Positions 1-16,275 of a stretch of DNA of 64,000 nucleotides are shown here, one piece after another; the stretch's first letter is position 1, and each line of letters starts with the position of its first letter. The translations under genes and the position numbers were made by a program. Source of the stretch: Crocinitomicaceae bacterium (lineage in GTDB: Bacteria; Bacteroidota; Bacteroidia; Flavobacteriales_D; Crocinitomicaceae); the NCBI GenBank assembly GCA_020436025.1, contig JAGQYP010000008.1:1-64000 (forward strand). Reading direction: 5' to 3'. The notes below the pieces were generated by a model. The model searched no databases, was not told the origin of the DNA, and worked only from the letters and a program-made list of their open reading frames with translations.

Positions 1-663
1 TTATTTAACAGGTATCTTCCCAATACCAGGTTCAGACCAATCGAAAAGTCCAGTTTCAAAAAAATAATTTGCCATTTGCAATGAACTATGCTTTGAATTC
101 TTATCTACGAAAACATGATAAGTACCAAGAGAGCTACTGTCAACAACAAAGCTGTTAGTCAAATTAGTTAAAGAGTCCAATTTACTTTTGTCGTTTGGAT
201 TTTTAAGGTTTGCATAGAATACAGCTCCATAGTAGTTAACACATTCTTGACCTAAAGGTTGCCAAATCGCATTTTGACAATCATCTGTGATAACGGTAAA
301 ATCGACATACCTAACAATTGCATTGTTTTCTAAATTCAACATTATCATTTGAATTTCTTCGCAATTTAAATTTTCATTTGTCAATTTGACAACAATGTGT
401 TTGACAGGATAATTATAGTTAGCATGTATGACATTCAAATCAGTTGCCATAATAGAGTTTTGATTGCTAACGAAGTTGTGAATATCACTATTGTTAGTGC
501 TACTATCAAAACCTATGTTAATGTATCGCGTCGACATTTCACCAATGTAATCTCTATCGCCGTCATAATATTTATAGTCGACATAATTGCAATTAGATAC
601 TTCGCTTTCTTTACTACAACCAATTGCGAGAATAATAAAAATTCCAATTATTACATTTTTCAT
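1..663 (-). CDS. Hypothetical lipoprotein
   Basis: A 220-residue protein with a lipoprotein signal: Lys at residue 3, a hydrophobic stretch, then a lipobox ending in Cys16 (LAIGC). It is predicted to be lipidated and held on the outside of the inner membrane or in the outer membrane. The mature part has several Cys residues (for example near 25, 101, 129 and 142), which may form disulfides, and no family I recognise. The stop codon lies at the window edge (TAA at 1-3), so the gene is complete. On its own strand the start codon is only about 20 nt downstream of a GTTGGCA site (683-689), a very short leader like that of an integron cassette gene. Function unknown. Confidence 0.75.
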   Translation of the reverse strand: MKNVIIGIFIILAIGCSKESEVSNCNYVDYKYYDGDRDYIGEMSTRYINIGFDSSTNNSDIHNFVSNQNSIMATDLNVIHANYNYPVKHIVVKLTNENLNCEEIQMIMLNLENNAIVRYVDFTVITDDCQNAIWQPLGQECVNYYGAVFYANLKNPNDKSKLDSLTNLTNSFVVDSSSLGTYHVFVDKNSKHSSLQMANYFFETGLFDWSEPGIGKIPVK

Positions 664-682
664 AAATGTAGTATTTAATTTT

Positions 683-805
683 TGCCAACGTTTAGCTAGC
701 CACCGTAGCGACTACTTTTAAAGTTCGTGTATGAATATACGGATAATGATAGATGTTTTTTGAAAATGAGAACGAGCTATGGGGTGCTAGGTGATGTTGT
801 GTACC
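683..805 (-). repeat. attC-like imperfect hairpin region
   Basis: Read on the minus strand this segment runs from GGTACACAAC (805-796, inside the last codons of the upstream gene) to GTTGGCA (689-683). Between them two stretches are imperfectly complementary: one near 777-790 (CTAGCACCCCATAGC on the minus strand) and one near 694-710 (GCTACGGTGGCTAG). An AAC end, an imperfect stem and a GTT end in about 120 bp is the general layout of an integron attC site. The outer boxes depart from the strict RYYYAAC/GTTRRRY consensus, so the call is tentative. Confidence 0.4.
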
Positions 806-1422
806 GTTTTTCTTCCAAACTTCAAGGTTTTATTATCAATCCATTTCTTAATCAGATAGGATACTACAACAGACACTAATGCTAGCACAAATGACAATCT
901 CTGCACCAAATCATTCTTACCTTCATATCCGATTAAGTCCAGAACTAACATTATCAAATAGATTCCAATTGTAATAAATTGGAAAGGTATCATGACCCTA
1001 TCTACTTTTTGCTTTAGATTCCATCGATACCAATTTGAGAATTTCTCATTGTCAGGGGTTTTAATCAATAAATCCGTAAGTATGCCATTAGACTCATTAT
1101 TTTTTTTAAGCCTACCCAAACAGACAGCTTTCAAGAACATTGTATAATCAAAATGAGGTTTATAATACTTTGAACTTCTCATTTTTTTTAAAGACTCTTC
1201 AATTTCAAGAATAATTTTCAATGCCTTGGTGTAATTGCCCGTCTTAATTAAAGGGTCAGCATATTTCAAAAGCTTAATAGGTAAAAAGACCTCTAAGTCC
1301 TCATTATATCCATTAGAAACAAGCTCTTCAATATAGTCTTGATTGGATTCATACTCTGATATGTATGCTAAGTCAGCTTGGCTGGATCGAAAGAATTTTT
1401 TGAGTTTAGTTTTTCTATTCAT
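787..1422 (-). CDS. Hypothetical protein with two C-terminal membrane helices
   Basis: A 211-residue protein I do not recognise. Residues about 45-125 look helical and TPR-like (a tandem-helix region with LLKYADPLIKTGNYTKALKI). Two hydrophobic segments follow at about 146-165 and 173-192, separated by a short loop, and the protein ends in a basic tail. It has no signal peptide, so the N-terminal part should face the cytoplasm. The gene sits alone between a perfectly complementary 10-bp pair, GTTGTGTACC (minus strand, 1455-1446, about 23 nt before the ATG) and GGTACACAAC (805-796, overlapping the final codons). One gene with a short leader between such boxes is how integron cassettes are built. 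Function unknown. Confidence 0.7.
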   Translation of the reverse strand: MNRKTKLKKFFRSSQADLAYISEYESNQDYIEELVSNGYNEDLEVFLPIKLLKYADPLIKTGNYTKALKIILEIEESLKKMRSSKYYKPHFDYTMFLKAVCLGRLKKNNESNGILTDLLIKTPDNEKFSNWYRWNLKQKVDRVMIPFQFITIGIYLIMLVLDLIGYEGKNDLVQRLSFVLALVSVVVSYLIKKWIDNKTLKFGRKTVHNIT

Positions 1423-1455
1423 GCAAGATAAATGGTCTTAGCGATGGTACACAAC
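796..1455 (-). other. Cassette-like unit bounded by 10-bp inverted repeats
   Basis: GTTGTGTACC at 796-805 and its exact complement GGTACACAAC at 1446-1455 enclose one gene (787-1422, whose stop lies just outside the left copy). In an integrated integron cassette, the start (GTT...) and the R'' box near the end (...AAC) come from the same attC and are therefore complementary. That relation is seen here. The cores do not fully match RYYYAAC, and no integrase is in the window. Confidence 0.4.
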
Positions 1456-1682
1456 GCCACTATATGTTGCGTTTTTAGTTGCTTAAGACTACCAAAGTAA
1501 TGAAATTTTGTAAAAAAACCATTTAGCAGAGAAGGAAATAAGTAAAAATAAAACTTAAAAACCCCACAAGCAAAGTTGAAATTTGCCGCCAACAAGTACG
1601 CACCTACAAAATGAATGGAGCAAACTACCTAAGCCACAAAAAGCAGAACAGTTAGCAACCAAAAAAATGCAATATATAATCT

Positions 1683-2108
1683 GTTAGGTGCATTTTTTAA
1701 AGCCAACCAACCAAAATCCGAAGGGTAAAAAGCAACTAAGTAACGGGTAAGAGTGTAGCAGAAAAGCAGCTTAAAAGTCAGCCCGAAAGAGGGAAAAAGT
1801 TGGAGCATAGCACCAGTACCACAAGAGTAACAAAAGGCACAAAAAGTTGGTTAGCTTACCAACAGGAAAAATAGTGCAAACTGTTTGGTACAAACTTTTA
1901 GAAACCACAAAAAGCAAACGCTATCGAAAAACCAAACTACAAGTAACTAAACTATTTTTGCGTAAAGAAAGCAGAGAAAATTCATCATCGCTTGCTCCGA
2001 AAGTATCAGATAAAGGGCTTTTTCAATTGCTAAAAAACCAAAAAAGAAAAAAAGCTAAAAATTAAAGCAGAAAAGCAATTAAAGACAAACCAAACAATTG
2101 CACCTAAC
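1683..2108. repeat. Inverted 10-mers GTTAGGTGCA / TGCACCTAAC
   Basis: GTTAGGTGCA (1683-1692) and its exact complement TGCACCTAAC (2099-2108) bound the A-rich non-coding block. Both contain full matches to the integron core boxes GTTRRRY (GTTAGGT) and RYYYAAC (ACCTAAC). The right copy is followed directly by the hairpin at 2111-2141. Confidence 0.55.
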
Positions 2109-2110
2109 AA

Positions 2111-2141
2111 TTGTATAAACCACATTATGTGCTTTATACAA
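2111..2141. repeat. 15-bp hairpin next to the AAC box
   Basis: The arms TTGTATAAACCACAT (2111-2125) and ATGTGCTTTATACAA (2127-2141) are complementary at 14 of 15 positions. They begin two bases after the ACCTAAC box. There is no run of T after the stem on either strand, so it does not look like an intrinsic terminator. It fits the folded part of an attC-type recombination site or another structured repeat. Confidence 0.6.
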
Positions 2142-2367
2142 CCTATGTTTTTTAAACTCCTGAGAAGAAAATACTAGTCAGGTTCTCTCAAATTTATAAA
2201 ATCTAATGGATTATTACATTGCTTAGCTTCAAAGGGATTTACCAAAAAATAGCTTCGAATAATTTATAATTCGAAAGCCTTCTTAAATCAAATTTTGACT
2301 TGGCTACTAATGAAATAGGGGACAAAAAGTCACCTAAATGACCTACTAATCCCCTATAATGATGCCC

Positions 2368-5331
2368 TTATTTATTTTTTACTACTCTCAGAATAGCTTT
2401 GTTTTGGTCTGAAGAGATAGTAACAATGTACACTCCTTTTGGTTGGTTGGCAATAGACAGATTGATCTTTTCTTCGGAATCAAATTTGGTAGAAAAAACC
2501 ACCTTACCATCGGCAGTTTTAATGGAAACATCCAAATCCTGATAAACAGTTCCCAAATCAATGTAGAATTCCCCATCCGTTGGATTTGGATACAAAGTCA
2601 TTTGATTCGCAAACGTATTTTCAATAATGCCCACTGTTGATATGTTCACACAATTTGAAGTATCAACACATCCATTTTCGGTCAATTCAACTGCAAAATT
2701 ACCGTTAACGGTAGCTGTAAAAGAAGCACTTGTTTCCCCACTCAATGGTGCATTATTATTGTCACAGTCCAACCATTGATAAGTCGCGCTTGAGTTATTA
2801 GCCGTAATGGTTGTGCTACTAACAGAAGTTGTAAGGTCCGAAACATTGTTGATAGTAAGATTCAGAGTAACAATCGAATCACATCCATTTGCAGCAGCAC
2901 CCGTTAAAGTATGTGTAGCTGAATTATTGCTGGAAGTATAGGTATTTCCATCTATCCAGTCGAAAGTGGCACATGCAGTTTGGACATCAGTACCTGTAGT
3001 AGGTTGTAGAATGGTCAAATCTAAAGTAACAATCGAATCACATCCATTTGCAGCAGCACCCGTTAAAGTATGAGTTGCTGAATTATTACTGGAAGTATAG
3101 GTATTCCCGTCTATCCAGTCAAAAGTCACACAAGCTGATTGTACATCAGTACCTGTTGTAGGTTGTAGAATTGTCAAATCTAAAGTAACAATAGAATCAC
3201 ATCCATTTGCAGCAGCACCCGTTAAAGTATGAGTTGCTGAATTATTACTGGAAGTATAGGTATTTCCATCTATCCAGTCAAAAGTCACACATGCCGATTG
3301 CACATCAGTACCTGTAGTAGGTTGTAGAATGGTCAAATTAAGCGTTACCACAGAATCACAACCATTTGCGGCTCCGGCATAAGTATGTGTGGCAATTGTA
3401 TTATTGGCTGTATATGTATTGCCATCAATCCAATCAAAAGTTTCACATGCAGTAACAATATCGGTATTAAATTTTCGAACACATCCAATTACATAATCAT
3501 GATCAAAATCAGTTGGGGTGAGAACGATACCAGCTAGAGCTGTGGACCAGATTCCTGCTCCATAAGCGCAAGTCCAAGAATGGGGACTACAATATTGTTG
3601 ATAAAAGCTACCAGTGCTGCTATATGGACTATTTCCGTTTGATGCATTATAATAACGTCTTTGACCTCTTATTAAGGAAATATTAAACATTCTTTGCCAA
3701 TCATTGGATCCAATTGTACTAACTAATGGACTTTTTACTCTAAAAGCCTCACTAAGCATGTGTAATCCGAAAATATTCATGCAGCTGGTTTGGTTATGAA
3801 CTCCGGTTGGAGTACTACACAGATAATCTCCGTTTTGCCAAAAACCATCAGCCCAACCAGCCGGATCTGTAAGGTTTGCACCTAAAAATCTGGATTGTAA
3901 AAATGCAAAATAATTGTCATGAGATGTCTTTAATTGTCCTCTTGTAATTCCTGGAGCCTCATTAGGGAAAGGCACCGTTGCATCTGCAGAAGAAAAATTG
4001 TGTATATCTAACCATCGGCATACTCCAATCATACCTGCACTAAAGATAGTACCACTTCCACCAGCAGTTGGGGCAAATCTTCTTGCGCTTCCATCAGTAA
4101 ATTGAGATTGAAGTATAGCGTTTGCGACTCTATATTTAAGATAATTATTTATAACAAGACCATAGCCGGCTGCCTCATCTTCAACTTTGCCTAAGGCTGC
4201 TCCAATGTATATGTTTGCTTCTACCAAGGAGTATGAAGTAGAGCCATTAATCGAGTTATAATTCCATCCTCCAGTTGCATTTCCATCAATCTGGGCCCAT
4301 GCTAAGTAGTCTACCATCTGCTGCATCACAAATTCCATTGATTTACCACTTTGAGAACCAACCTGAATTGGAGTACCACCAAGAGCTGGTAATGTATAGG
4401 ACAATGCCTCTAATAATTCAGAAGTTGCACTAGTCACCCCACGGTCAACTGTTTGATAAGTAGTTTTTACTCCTATACCATCTACTGTACCTGTGATTTT
4501 TGTTCCTACTATGGGATTTTGACTAGCATCGTATCCAATGGTACTATCTTCATATATTCCGATTGGAAAAGTCTCTTGCGTAATTCGGCTACCTAAAACA
4601 GAATTCATCATTCTGGTAACTGTTTCTGCATAGGGGTCGCTATTCCATCTTTGATCATTTTCTGCATCCCAATTTGCAGGAAGAGCCATAGAATAAGGAT
4701 TGATACTACCTGGAGGATAGGCAGGTAAATGGCCATTTTTAATAAATAACTTAATATACTGAGGGTCTGTTAAATTATATGGAGTGGAACCTGTTATCCC
4801 CGAACTATTATATGTTCCTCCAAAGGATGCTAATAGTACATGACACGACCACATGGCTTCACCAGCAGCCACAGCTGACATCACATCTACTTGATATTGT
4901 GTCCAGTTTGTTGGATCATCATCAGGCGTAAAATCATGCACAAATAATTTCATAGTTGCATACGTAAACTGTCCAGTACATGTATTTTCTAATTGAAGCA
5001 TTACATCAATTATAGTATCTTCAGTAACGGAAGGAGTCAAAAACGTTTGACCTAAATCATTCACTCCCATTGTCGCTCCATTCGGAGTAACAGCTCTTCC
5101 GGATTCATCACTAAAATCTCCATCTCTGTCGCGATCCCACTTCAATATATAACTGTTACAAGTTGCATCCCTTAAACTAGCTTTAAGAGCTATCGGTGCT
5201 CCTTCGTAACTTGGATGAGGTAAGTTTGGATTACTTTGGTCAAAAGGAATAATGAGTATGGTATCCTGTCCGAAAGTTGGTAGAAATAATAAGTTTGTTA
5301 AGAAAAAGAGTAGAAGATGTGTAGTTTTCAT
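2368..5331 (-). CDS. T9SS-exported protein with toroid-like N-terminal half and four 53-residue repeats
   Basis: A 987-residue secreted protein. Residues 1-21 are a classical signal peptide ending before Gln22. Residues about 150-610 hold helix-rich stretches with Trp/Gly motifs (GGWNYN near 355 and further Gly/Trp-rich segments towards 610) that resemble the alpha/alpha-toroid repeats of squalene-cyclase or prenyltransferase-like folds. This is a weak resemblance and no enzyme activity is claimed. Residues 624-834 contain four repeats of 52-53 residues with the core FDWIDGNTYT...NGCDS, each with two Cys. Residues about 911-987 are a type A T9SS sorting domain (LYPNPTDGEF ... KGVYIVTI ... VVKNK), which is cut off on export so that the protein ends on the surface or in the medium. 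The function may be adhesion or glycan binding, but that is not shown. Confidence 0.85.
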   Translation of the reverse strand: MKTTHLLLFFLTNLLFLPTFGQDTILIIPFDQSNPNLPHPSYEGAPIALKASLRDATCNSYILKWDRDRDGDFSDESGRAVTPNGATMGVNDLGQTFLTPSVTEDTIIDVMLQLENTCTGQFTYATMKLFVHDFTPDDDPTNWTQYQVDVMSAVAAGEAMWSCHVLLASFGGTYNSSGITGSTPYNLTDPQYIKLFIKNGHLPAYPPGSINPYSMALPANWDAENDQRWNSDPYAETVTRMMNSVLGSRITQETFPIGIYEDSTIGYDASQNPIVGTKITGTVDGIGVKTTYQTVDRGVTSATSELLEALSYTLPALGGTPIQVGSQSGKSMEFVMQQMVDYLAWAQIDGNATGGWNYNSINGSTSYSLVEANIYIGAALGKVEDEAAGYGLVINNYLKYRVANAILQSQFTDGSARRFAPTAGGSGTIFSAGMIGVCRWLDIHNFSSADATVPFPNEAPGITRGQLKTSHDNYFAFLQSRFLGANLTDPAGWADGFWQNGDYLCSTPTGVHNQTSCMNIFGLHMLSEAFRVKSPLVSTIGSNDWQRMFNISLIRGQRRYYNASNGNSPYSSTGSFYQQYCSPHSWTCAYGAGIWSTALAGIVLTPTDFDHDYVIGCVRKFNTDIVTACETFDWIDGNTYTANNTIATHTYAGAANGCDSVVTLNLTILQPTTGTDVQSACVTFDWIDGNTYTSSNNSATHTLTGAAANGCDSIVTLDLTILQPTTGTDVQSACVTFDWIDGNTYTSSNNSATHTLTGAAANGCDSIVTLDLTILQPTTGTDVQTACATFDWIDGNTYTSSNNSATHTLTGAAANGCDSIVTLNLTINNVSDLTTSVSSTTITANNSSATYQWLDCDNNNAPLSGETSASFTATVNGNFAVELTENGCVDTSNCVNISTVGIIENTFANQMTLYPNPTDGEFYIDLGTVYQDLDVSIKTADGKVVFSTKFDSEEKINLSIANQPKGVYIVTISSDQNKAILRVVKNK
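2830..3462 (-). repeat. Four in-frame repeats of 159 bp (first 156 bp)
   Basis: The shared word ACATCAGTACCTG recurs at 2984, 3143 and 3302, exactly 159 bp apart, and a more divergent first unit lies at about 3307-3462. The three inner copies differ by only a few bases even at third codon positions, which points to recent duplication or gene conversion. They encode residues 624-834 of the secreted protein. Confidence 0.9.
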
Positions 5332-13309: not shown

Positions 13310-16275
13310 ATTCTGAAATCACTTTTAAGGTTTTCCACACGAGAATTCGGACTTTGACGTCCACTAGTTAATTCAATCACTCGAATATTCAAATAAGTTT
13401 GCAATTCGGAAAGCATGATTTCCCCATCTCGGTTGAGGTCGGCATGTTTATTTTCCAATCCATCCAAAAGGGTATAGGTAAACACCCCGTTGTTCCATTC
13501 TTTTCCTTCGATGGCATATTCGGTACCAGAAGCCGAAGAAATCACCGTAGCTCCATTTGACTCACGCGTATCAGCAAAAAGCATTTTCGACAGCTGGAAG
13601 GTACTTACGGATTGTCCATCTTTTAAAGCCACACTATTTCCTACAGCTCTAAAAGTGATATCATCTTCATCTTCAACTACATTTTCTGAAATGGCAACCT
13701 CATCTTTATCTACTTCACCAGAGTGACAAGCATCTAAAAGCAATAGTTTTTTTCTTGACTTGGTGGCTTCCAGAATATGCTCAAAAGATTCAAAGGATAT
13801 TCCTCTTTCTTGTGGTTTGTAGAAATCCATGTCGTAGGATGCAAAATAGTAATCCAATTCATCATCCAATACTCCGTGACCCGCAGCAAAAATGATAACC
13901 ACATCGTTGTATTTTGCATTTTTCACAAAATCAGTTAGTGTTGAAATTCGGGCATTTGTAGCATCTGCATCTGAAAGGTTTTTCGTGTAGATATTCTTAT
14001 AAATTTTTGATTTCTCAAATTTGTGAATGACATCTTTGGAGTCTTTCGAGGCATAATTCAAATTGAATTTCTCCATATTGTATTTACTCACTCCGATGGT
14101 CACCAAATACAAATCAGGTTTTCTTTCCTTGAGTTTACTTTCAATAACGAACGACTCTTTCAAGGATTTAATTCCTTTGGCATTCACTGCAAATATTTCA
14201 ATGAAATTATCTCCGGGAGTTAGAGGAACCGTAATCGCAATGTTTACTTCCTGTTTTTTCTCGATCAATTCAGGAGCGTCTTCCAATAATGGAACACCAT
14301 TTACAATCACTTTAAGATCAATAATAGCTTCTTTTGGATCGGTTGCTTTACATTGGAAAGTGATGTTATCTGTGAAGGTATTTTGTTCTTCAGGAGGCAA
14401 CACTTCCAATTGTGGAAGATCCGATGAGATTTTAATATCCTCAATCGTAATTCCTAGTTTTTTCAAACGTTTTTGATAAGCTTTATTCATTTCTACTACC
14501 AAGGATTGTTCAATAAATGGCAGTTTTTCATAAATCAAATCCGGACGATTGTATTTTACATCAAATTGATCAAATGGAAATACATTCCCTTCCCAGCTAA
14601 AGGCTACATTTTCTAAAGCACCTTTGGAGGCAAAATAATAAGATTGCGGGTTTAACCAAAGAAAATCTCTTTGACCAGTTAAATACAAATCAGCAATTCT
14701 ATTCAAATCCTGGCCTTCCCAAAAACGAATCGAACCATCCCAACTGTAAGTAATGGCAACATTGTATTTTTTATTGTAATCTACCCCAGTAATCAAATCT
14801 GAATGCAGCGTTTGAACTCTTTTAGAAACATCTCCCGAAGAGTTATTGAAGGTTTCCAAATGCCCATTTTTCACTCTGAAAAAATCTCCATCATTTAATG
14901 CGGCAGTTTGTTTTGAATTTTCATCCAGGAAGTAAGTCTGCCAAACAATTTGTTTTCCAGAAGCTTGTCTGACGATTAAGCCATTACTTTTGTCCTTGAG
15001 AATTTCTCGAACCAATCTTATTTCATTTTTCTTAATGTCCCATTCGCCTACCCAAATTTCACAAAACGAAAGCTGATTGGTGTTTTCTTCAAAAGGTTTT
15101 GTTTTAAGTGCTTTGAATTTCAGGACATTTCCAACCTGTTCGTCTAAAGAGATAATGGCATATTTCCATCCTTTCAATTTTTTCTCTTGTGGAAAATACA
15201 ATCGGTTGGAAATAACGTTATTACTGATTAGGTTTATTTTTCTAAGAATACCATTGGAGTAACCAATTAACAGTTCATCTTCATCCTGGCTAAATTTTGC
15301 TACATTGATGGGATTCGCTTCACCTTTTAACAATTTGGTCATTTTCTTTGTTTCATCATCCCAAACAATAATATTCCCTTCGATATCGGCCGATACAAAT
15401 GAATTTTTATCTTTTCCAAAACAAACGGAAGTAACTTCAGATAAGTGACCTTTGAAATAGTTGTAAGTTGTAAAATCACGTTTTAGGATTTCTTCTACAA
15501 TTCCATCTGCACGCGCAATCAATATTTTATTTCCGAAAAAACCAACATCATTCACTGCGATCAATGGACTGGGTAAACAATACCTTTTTTCAGTCATCGT
15601 TCGCATATTGTAGTAATAAACTACACCATATAGATCACCAATCACATATTCATTCATGTAAGAATCGATTGAGGTCGCATTTGCTGTAATTGATTTCACA
15701 ATATTCAGGTTGTCTTCCCGAATAATTCTAGTAAACTTATCTTCACGTCCTCCATAGATGATATAGCCTGGCTCATCCAAATAATGAACGGCATCATAGT
15801 GGTCAAAAGAAAGTGCTTTTAAAGTTCTGATATTGAAACTGGAGTCCATTAAATGTAAGAATCGAGTTCCAATAGCCACATTGTGATTTTTTTGGTTAAC
15901 CGCTACTGCTTTACATTTATTTTTAAATGGTCCAATGGTCTTTAAAATTTCCAAATTTCTGGCATCGATCAACTTAACCGTACTATCATCACTACAAGAA
16001 ATCAGTGTAGAGTCGTTATAAAATTCGATTTTATTGATTGCTGCTTTGTGCGCAATGATCTCAGTTTCTTGTTTCCCTGTTTTAACATCCCAAAGAATAA
16101 TTTTGGCATCTTTTCCAGCAGAATAGATTTTAGTATTGTCATGGCTGTAGATCAATGAATTGATTTTTCCAGCATGACCAGTTTGAATGATTACTTCGAG
16201 TTCTTTTTGAGAATTGAGTTTAGTCGTAAAGAAGCAAAGAATCAGCAACGTCGAGTAAAGCGTTAAGAATCTCAT
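13303..16275 (-). CDS. Secreted WD40 repeat protein with C-terminal caspase-like (C14) domain
   Basis: A 990-residue protein with a signal peptide (residues 1-22, ending TKLNSQ). Several WD40 repeats occupy about 28-345 (for example GHAGKINSLIYSHD...AKIILWD and GHLSEVTSVCF...IIVWDD), with a further WD-like stretch near 490-520 (SWDGSIRFWEG). An Ig-like linker at about 630-715 leads to a caspase/metacaspase fold from 718. The catalytic dyad is intact: His800 in FAAGHGV and Cys850 in LDACHSG. A single EF-hand-like loop (DLNRDGEIMLSE, about 946-957) follows, in line with the Ca-dependence known for metacaspases. The protein is predicted to work in the periplasm or at the surface, unlike cytoplasmic caspase-like death effectors. 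It lies 63 bp after the alpha-2-macroglobulin gene and overlaps the barrel gene. Confidence 0.92.
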   Translation of the reverse strand: MRFLTLYSTLLILCFFTTKLNSQKELEVIIQTGHAGKINSLIYSHDNTKIYSAGKDAKIILWDVKTGKQETEIIAHKAAINKIEFYNDSTLISCSDDSTVKLIDARNLEILKTIGPFKNKCKAVAVNQKNHNVAIGTRFLHLMDSSFNIRTLKALSFDHYDAVHYLDEPGYIIYGGREDKFTRIIREDNLNIVKSITANATSIDSYMNEYVIGDLYGVVYYYNMRTMTEKRYCLPSPLIAVNDVGFFGNKILIARADGIVEEILKRDFTTYNYFKGHLSEVTSVCFGKDKNSFVSADIEGNIIVWDDETKKMTKLLKGEANPINVAKFSQDEDELLIGYSNGILRKINLISNNVISNRLYFPQEKKLKGWKYAIISLDEQVGNVLKFKALKTKPFEENTNQLSFCEIWVGEWDIKKNEIRLVREILKDKSNGLIVRQASGKQIVWQTYFLDENSKQTAALNDGDFFRVKNGHLETFNNSSGDVSKRVQTLHSDLITGVDYNKKYNVAITYSWDGSIRFWEGQDLNRIADLYLTGQRDFLWLNPQSYYFASKGALENVAFSWEGNVFPFDQFDVKYNRPDLIYEKLPFIEQSLVVEMNKAYQKRLKKLGITIEDIKISSDLPQLEVLPPEEQNTFTDNITFQCKATDPKEAIIDLKVIVNGVPLLEDAPELIEKKQEVNIAITVPLTPGDNFIEIFAVNAKGIKSLKESFVIESKLKERKPDLYLVTIGVSKYNMEKFNLNYASKDSKDVIHKFEKSKIYKNIYTKNLSDADATNARISTLTDFVKNAKYNDVVIIFAAGHGVLDDELDYYFASYDMDFYKPQERGISFESFEHILEATKSRKKLLLLDACHSGEVDKDEVAISENVVEDEDDITFRAVGNSVALKDGQSVSTFQLSKMLFADTRESNGATVISSASGTEYAIEGKEWNNGVFTYTLLDGLENKHADLNRDGEIMLSELQTYLNIRVIELTSGRQSPNSRVENLKSDFRIW

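Follow-up and report, generated by a model that had tools for sequence, protein, structure and literature searches.

A probable remnant of an integron-like cassette array at a contig edge in a Crocinitomicaceae bacterium

Layout of the left edge of the window

The window, a stretch of 64,000 nucleotides from a Crocinitomicaceae bacterium (G000:C181:1-64000), starts at the edge of its contig (position 1). Its first 2224 positions hold the following features, all on the minus strand and given here from right to left.

2145..2224, minus strand: decayed, truncated 3' end of a XerA-like integrase gene, identified by local DNA alignment to the intact gene on contig C175 of the same genome
2106..2150, minus strand: attI-like site; a palindrome ending ..TTTATACAATT^GTT, with 88% identity to its counterpart at the 3' end of the intact gene, and aligned with 19 relatives
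1456..2108, minus strand: cassette B; first bases GTTAGGTGCA at 2108, perfect 10-nt reverse-complement ends, no convincing ORF in the ORF list
1446..1692, minus strand: attC-like site of cassette B; 247 nt, with R boxes and inner arms TATATATTGC..GGTTGC / GCAACT..GCAACATATA
690..1455, minus strand: cassette A; first bases GTTGTGTACC at 1455, perfect 10-nt reverse-complement ends
787..1422, minus strand: cassette A gene, 211 aa
683..805, minus strand: attC-like site of cassette A, for which the plus strand is the folding (bottom) strand
1..689, minus strand: cassette C; first bases GTTGGCAAAA at 689, cut by the contig edge
1..663, minus strand: cassette C gene, a 220-aa putative lipoprotein with no Pfam or NCBIfam match

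The alignment to the C175 gene spans window positions 2224..2096, from the last codons through the palindrome to the crossover. The hairpin at 2111-2141, which the sequence-only reading had noted next to an AAC box, is real, with one internal mismatch; it is part of the attI-like site next to the stub of the recombinase gene and not a cassette element. An imperfect hairpin had also been noted at 694-790; it folds with -38.0 kcal/mol on the plus strand and -16.9 kcal/mol on the minus strand. The product of the cassette A gene has no Pfam or NCBIfam match, and remote homologues were found in only 2 of 148 other relatives, none of them of the same genus. Start codons had been placed 20-23 nt after the GTT boxes; the measured distances are 26 nt in cassette C and 33 nt in cassette A.

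The two perfect 10-mer pairs of the sequence-only reading are both present, at 796-805/1446-1455 (GTTGTGTACC/GGTACACAAC) and 1683-1692/2099-2108 (GTTAGGTGCA/TGCACCTAAC); the strict pattern GTTRRRY/RYYYAAC fits only the second, as that reading held. By dinucleotide shuffles, the probability of finding two pairs of this kind within the first 2.2 kb is ~0.0015. Lone 10-mer pairs also arise by chance elsewhere in the 64 kb, so that the argument is carried by the comparison with relatives, the pairs by themselves being judged insufficient. Within the window, the support for the sites consists of the two 10-nt pairs and one model match: covariance model R1 (see below) gives the attC-like site of cassette A 40.9 bits, this site being among the 36 training sequences of the model. 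The site of cassette B is atypically long, and R1 does not detect it. No Rfam family scores above its gathering score in the window, no plasmid DNA with direct similarity to the region was found, and a search of the bacterium's own genome for the exact long site pattern gave no match; the sites are too diverse.

The sequence-only reading had named three observations that would speak against an array: a lack of further attC-like sites, a genome without an integrase, and the same hairpins scattered singly as REP-like elements. None of these was made. Further attC-like sites are found in the same genome (C18:1176-1303, C18:720-845 and C21:2593-2715), a recombinase gene flanked by the same hairpin lies at C175:469-1668:-, and the hairpin occurs in two copies only, next to the intact recombinase and next to the window remnant. 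The proposal that the left edge belongs to a cassette array is thus supported, with the correction that the cassettes run on the minus strand. The suggestion that the array is decaying also fits, since the recombinase gene is reduced to its 3' end at 2145-2224. To the right of this region, positions 2368-5331 encode a secreted protein of 987 aa; it has a type IX sorting-like tail, and its internal repeats (..TFDWIDGNTYTSSNNSATHTLTGAAANGCDSIVTL..) are near-identical.

Cassette arrays and attC-like sites in relatives

Relatives were sampled as one genome per species. At about 20 loci an attI-like site lies directly 3' of a recombinase gene and is followed each time by a different, unrelated gene. 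In 10 relatives a 10-nt reverse-complement partner of the GTT at attI, perfect or with one mismatch, lies one cassette downstream and is followed by a stem; in some relatives no partner is detectable at attI. A wider set of XerA-like loci with enough downstream DNA gave a perfect partner in 9 of 33 (17 of 313 control windows), a figure that is low because many of these loci are array-less homologues. Many recombinase-bearing contigs stop within ~2 kb of the recombinase stop codon, probably because repeated sites break assemblies.

Chaining of sites yielded 84 attC-like sites in 22 arrays. The cassette ORF runs in the direction of the recombinase at 79 of these sites and is reversed at 4, and one site has no ORF; the median distance from GTT to start codon in the chained cassettes is 32 nt. 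The longest view is provided by the closed chromosome of G061, with at least 21 consecutive cassettes. In that array a 787-bp cassette occurs in exact tandem copy (0 mismatches), cut at C|GTT, and identity continues only 3-4 bases past the unit. Similarity also breaks at the GTT when the attI loci of two congeners are compared, with identities of 0.56-0.83 upstream and 0.38-0.58 downstream (shuffled, 0.46). The split is clear for most pairs, and small or absent with G001 C243, where no recombinase lies beside the site. The exact tandem copy and the sharp breaks at GTT, read as footprints, suggest that cassettes have moved. At the G001 C243 locus an attI-like hairpin without a recombinase (L040:2036-2090) adjoins a gene that by eye is DUF262/GmrSD-like, and direct repeats of ~100 bp occur at about 730 and 1920.

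A palindromic attI is specific to the clade of the window, with a mean folding z of -4.0 there and of -0.4 in other clades, where attI is unstructured. At their ends the attI hairpins have a conserved GTT and no T-run.

The attC-like sites that bound the cassettes have R''-L'' / L'-R' boxes and fold as single strands. An alignment of 36 of them (bottom strand) gives a 21-pair structure with compensatory changes in 15 pairs. In this alignment 92.8% of cells are paired, and the covariation score is 0.516, as against 0.06-0.16 for slid partners; none of 500 shuffles reached it. G.U pairs occupy two positions almost invariably and a third one commonly. Such pairs become A.C mismatches on the opposite strand, which would favor the bottom strand. 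The more stable fold is that of the bottom strand at 65 of 84 sites and that of the top strand at 16. AAC-to-GTT lengths do not vary freely but cluster near 54, 117, 153 and 182 nt (84 sites, 22 arrays).

Covariance model R1, trained on those 36 sequences, detects sites at E<=1e-4 in 93 of 119 relatives (~78%). Downstream of recombinases that had no part in training, e.g., L130 and the Persicobacter plasmid L176, the model likewise detects sites, and it had no match at E<=0.01 in 20 non-Bacteroidota genomes. The R1 counts are lower bounds, since the model misses G004, G025 and G041 (one genus); the G004 sites belong to the 150-186-nt class.

The recombinase and its divergent partner

The intact gene on C175 carries the same attI palindrome at its 3' end and encodes a 399-aa tyrosine recombinase with the invariant catalytic residues R237, K262, H326, R329, H352 and Y361. 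Full-length homologues with at least 51% identity were found in about 25 of 199 relatives. The XerA model NF040815 gives the enzyme P0001 235 bits (cut-off 220), and enzymes of other clades score 196-243 bits, some of them under the cut-off. With the integron integrase model TIGR02249 the same enzyme reaches 193 bits, below the cut-off of 265. The spacing from GKG to RHSFA is 68-73 residues in all array recombinases tested, as in array-less XerA, and 110 in IntI1; a comparison with IntI4 2a3v shows the same gap. The additional domain that IntI proteins carry near patch III is absent from all array recombinases tested. Structure prediction for the Winogradskyella enzyme (pLDDT 85.6) gave XerA 5hxy and IntI4 2a3v as the best structural matches. 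The recombinase tree, in which the placement of IntI1 is not resolved and one row from this genome is mis-framed, carries no claim on origin.

These enzymes have an N-terminal extension of 75-110 aa with a predicted beta-beta-alpha-beta-beta-alpha-beta order. Pfam HARP exceeds its cut-off in one relative only (L123, 26.2 versus 25). Foldseek matches of the N-terminal domain include the XPB N-terminal domain (E 0.05), MutS and SMARCAL1-HARP (E 0.56), none significant alone. The predicted fold weakly resembles HARP/XPB-like domains of the structure-recognition type.

A gene of ~120 aa with the treble-clef motif C..C..GR.DK.(F/Y)C...CKS lies directly upstream of the recombinase gene, in divergent orientation, at most loci of the window's clade. 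In this genome it is found at L038:1765-2136 (G000:C175), divergent from the recombinase. The best matches (E<1e-28) number 17, and 16 of them are within ~600 bp of a recombinase gene and divergent from it; paralogues occur in most genomes. The only Pfam match of the protein is sub-threshold, to the treble-clef family DUF2116. It is possible that the protein acts as a regulator or accessory factor.

It is improbable that these arrays belong to a canonical IntI integron whose integrase is absent from the assembly or hidden in it, with the XerA-like gene a bystander. The layout of the sites (R''-L''..L'-R', bottom-strand preference) is close to that of canonical attC, and the XerA-like enzymes do score 191-212 bits on TIGR02249. 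No protein in 149 relatives exceeds the IntI cut-off, however, in a set that holds no positive-control genome, IntI1 itself scoring 508 bits as a control on the model. At each of the ~20 loci inspected, attI is directly flanked by the XerA-like gene, and the attI palindrome tracks the recombinase by clade. Equally doubtful is the shuffling of chromosomal arrays by the host XerC/XerD at dif-like sites. The core of the recombinase is Xer-like, but the gene next to attI is distinct from the other Xer-like genes of the genome (on C115 and C128), and the sites are long covarying stem-loops, unlike the short dif-type sites. Small accessory genes separated by ordinary REP-like hairpins or by terminators would account for hairpins in intergenic gaps and for chance single 10-mer pairs, but this is the least probable explanation of all, given, across the genomes compared, ends that match within cassettes and not between neighbors, co-directional ORFs, similarity that stops at GTT, the exact cassette copy, long multi-cassette arrays beside a recombinase, attI hairpins without a T-run, and, in place of the dispersed single hairpins of REP/BIME elements, which do not bound genes, a hairpin confined to two recombinase loci and attC-like sites that bound cassettes.

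Interpretation, known systems and cargo

The best explanation for the left edge of the window (probability about 0.86) is that it is the surviving end of an integron-like cassette array, of a type found widely among Bacteroidota. The intact platform would consist of a tyrosine recombinase of the XerA type whose N-terminal domain is HARP-like, a divergent treble-clef gene, and an attI at the 3' end of the recombinase gene. Downstream of attI, the array would be built of one-gene cassettes co-directional with the recombinase, each ending in an attC folded as a single bottom strand. The recombinase would cut at G|TTRNN, and the cassette would leave in circular form, its attC perfectly paired at the foot, to be reinserted at attI or at another attC. 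Such a mode of excision and reinsertion would explain why every cassette retains complementary ends. The window copy has no recombinase of its own, and so would be mobile only if the intact C175 enzyme acts in trans.

Integrons are defined by IntI (PMC9668308, PMC2426708, PMC8138268). The additional domain of IntI is described as essential for integron function in a statement of PMC8138268 that cites MacDonald 2006, and likewise by Messier and Roy 2001 as cited in PMC2426708. Classical integrons use bottom-strand attC (PMC2727003), and in reverse integrons the integrase is co-directional with the cassettes (PMC6557892). In Bacteroidota integrons are reported to be rare: the IntegronFinder 2.0 paper mentions In0 elements and one complete integron, that of Salinibacter (PMC9024848).

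The arrays share several traits with the reverse chromosomal integrons of Treponema denticola and Blastopirellula marina (PMC6557892), namely an integrase co-directional with the cassettes (here for 79 of 84 ORFs), an adjacent attI, and one-ORF attC cassettes. Reverse integrons, however, have IntI, whereas the enzyme here is of the XerA type, lacks the IntI insertion, and has in addition an N-terminal domain and a divergent treble-clef gene. With canonical IntI integrons, such as class 1 and the V. cholerae superintegron, they share complementary cassette ends, the G|TT junction, diverse accessory cargo, and an attC stem with R/L boxes, an unpaired spacer and bottom-strand bias. An attI directly beside the integrase gene is likewise found. 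The arrays differ in the absent additional domain (68-73 versus 110 residues), an R-box match of ~10 nt, near-invariant G.U pairs, clustered AAC-GTT lengths and, in this clade, a palindromic attI. From XerA recombinases (NF040815; 5hxy, 4a8e), with which they share catalytic core and fold, the enzymes differ in being tied to attI/attC arrays and in the N-terminal extension of ~75-110 aa. The window copy resembles a CALIN (a cluster of attC sites lacking an integrase), as it holds two attC-like sites and only a stub of the integrase gene, the nearest intact one being on another contig; unlike a CALIN, it retains attI and this 3' stub, with an intact copy elsewhere in the genome. Judged from sequence, such an array would function like a reverse integron with bottom-strand attC, yet it lacks the IntI by which integrons are defined.

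Two points go beyond the sequence-only reading: the recombinase is no canonical IntI, and systems of this kind are very common in the order. The chances are slightly better than even that Bacteroidota have an integron class of their own, order-wide and largely missed by IntI-based tools, in which folded attC is recombined by a XerA-type enzyme that lacks the additional domain of IntI and is paired with a dedicated treble-clef protein; the HARP/XPB-like domain may read the folded site, and G.U wobbles may enforce the choice of strand. No earlier description of such a system was found in the open-access literature, which was the scope of the search. Cassette capture without the IntI domain, with attC in ~78% of the relatives searched, would expose a hidden reservoir of mobile genes in bacteria from the sea, soil and gut, with functions in restriction, metal and stress response and phage-defence-like roles. 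The system would also make it testable which protein feature enables a tyrosine recombinase to act on folded single-stranded DNA.

The cassette proteins are diverse accessory functions. Apart from the exact tandem copy, all 79 cassette ORFs differ from one another, and there is no homologous pair between arrays. The 76 that were scanned include a HaeII endonuclease, a D12 methyltransferase, GmrSD, a GajB-like helicase and Schlafen AlbA, as well as superoxide dismutase, MerT, a cation efflux protein and a beta-lactamase fold. By eye, SIR2-type and STAND/NTPase-type genes adjoin attC-like sites at L039:8170 onwards (G001:C206) and L182:1111-2571 (G000:C21), which suggests phage-defence cargo at these sites.

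A relative of the recombinase has also been found on a plasmid of Persicobacter sp. JZB09 (CP012862, L176), with attC-like sites at 16191 and 20402; this is possibly a mobile version of the platform. Outside the Bacteroidota, recombinase relatives with possible cassette ends were seen in a Spirochaetota MAG (L123) and a Firmicutes MAG (L127), where they could reflect transfer or a binning error.
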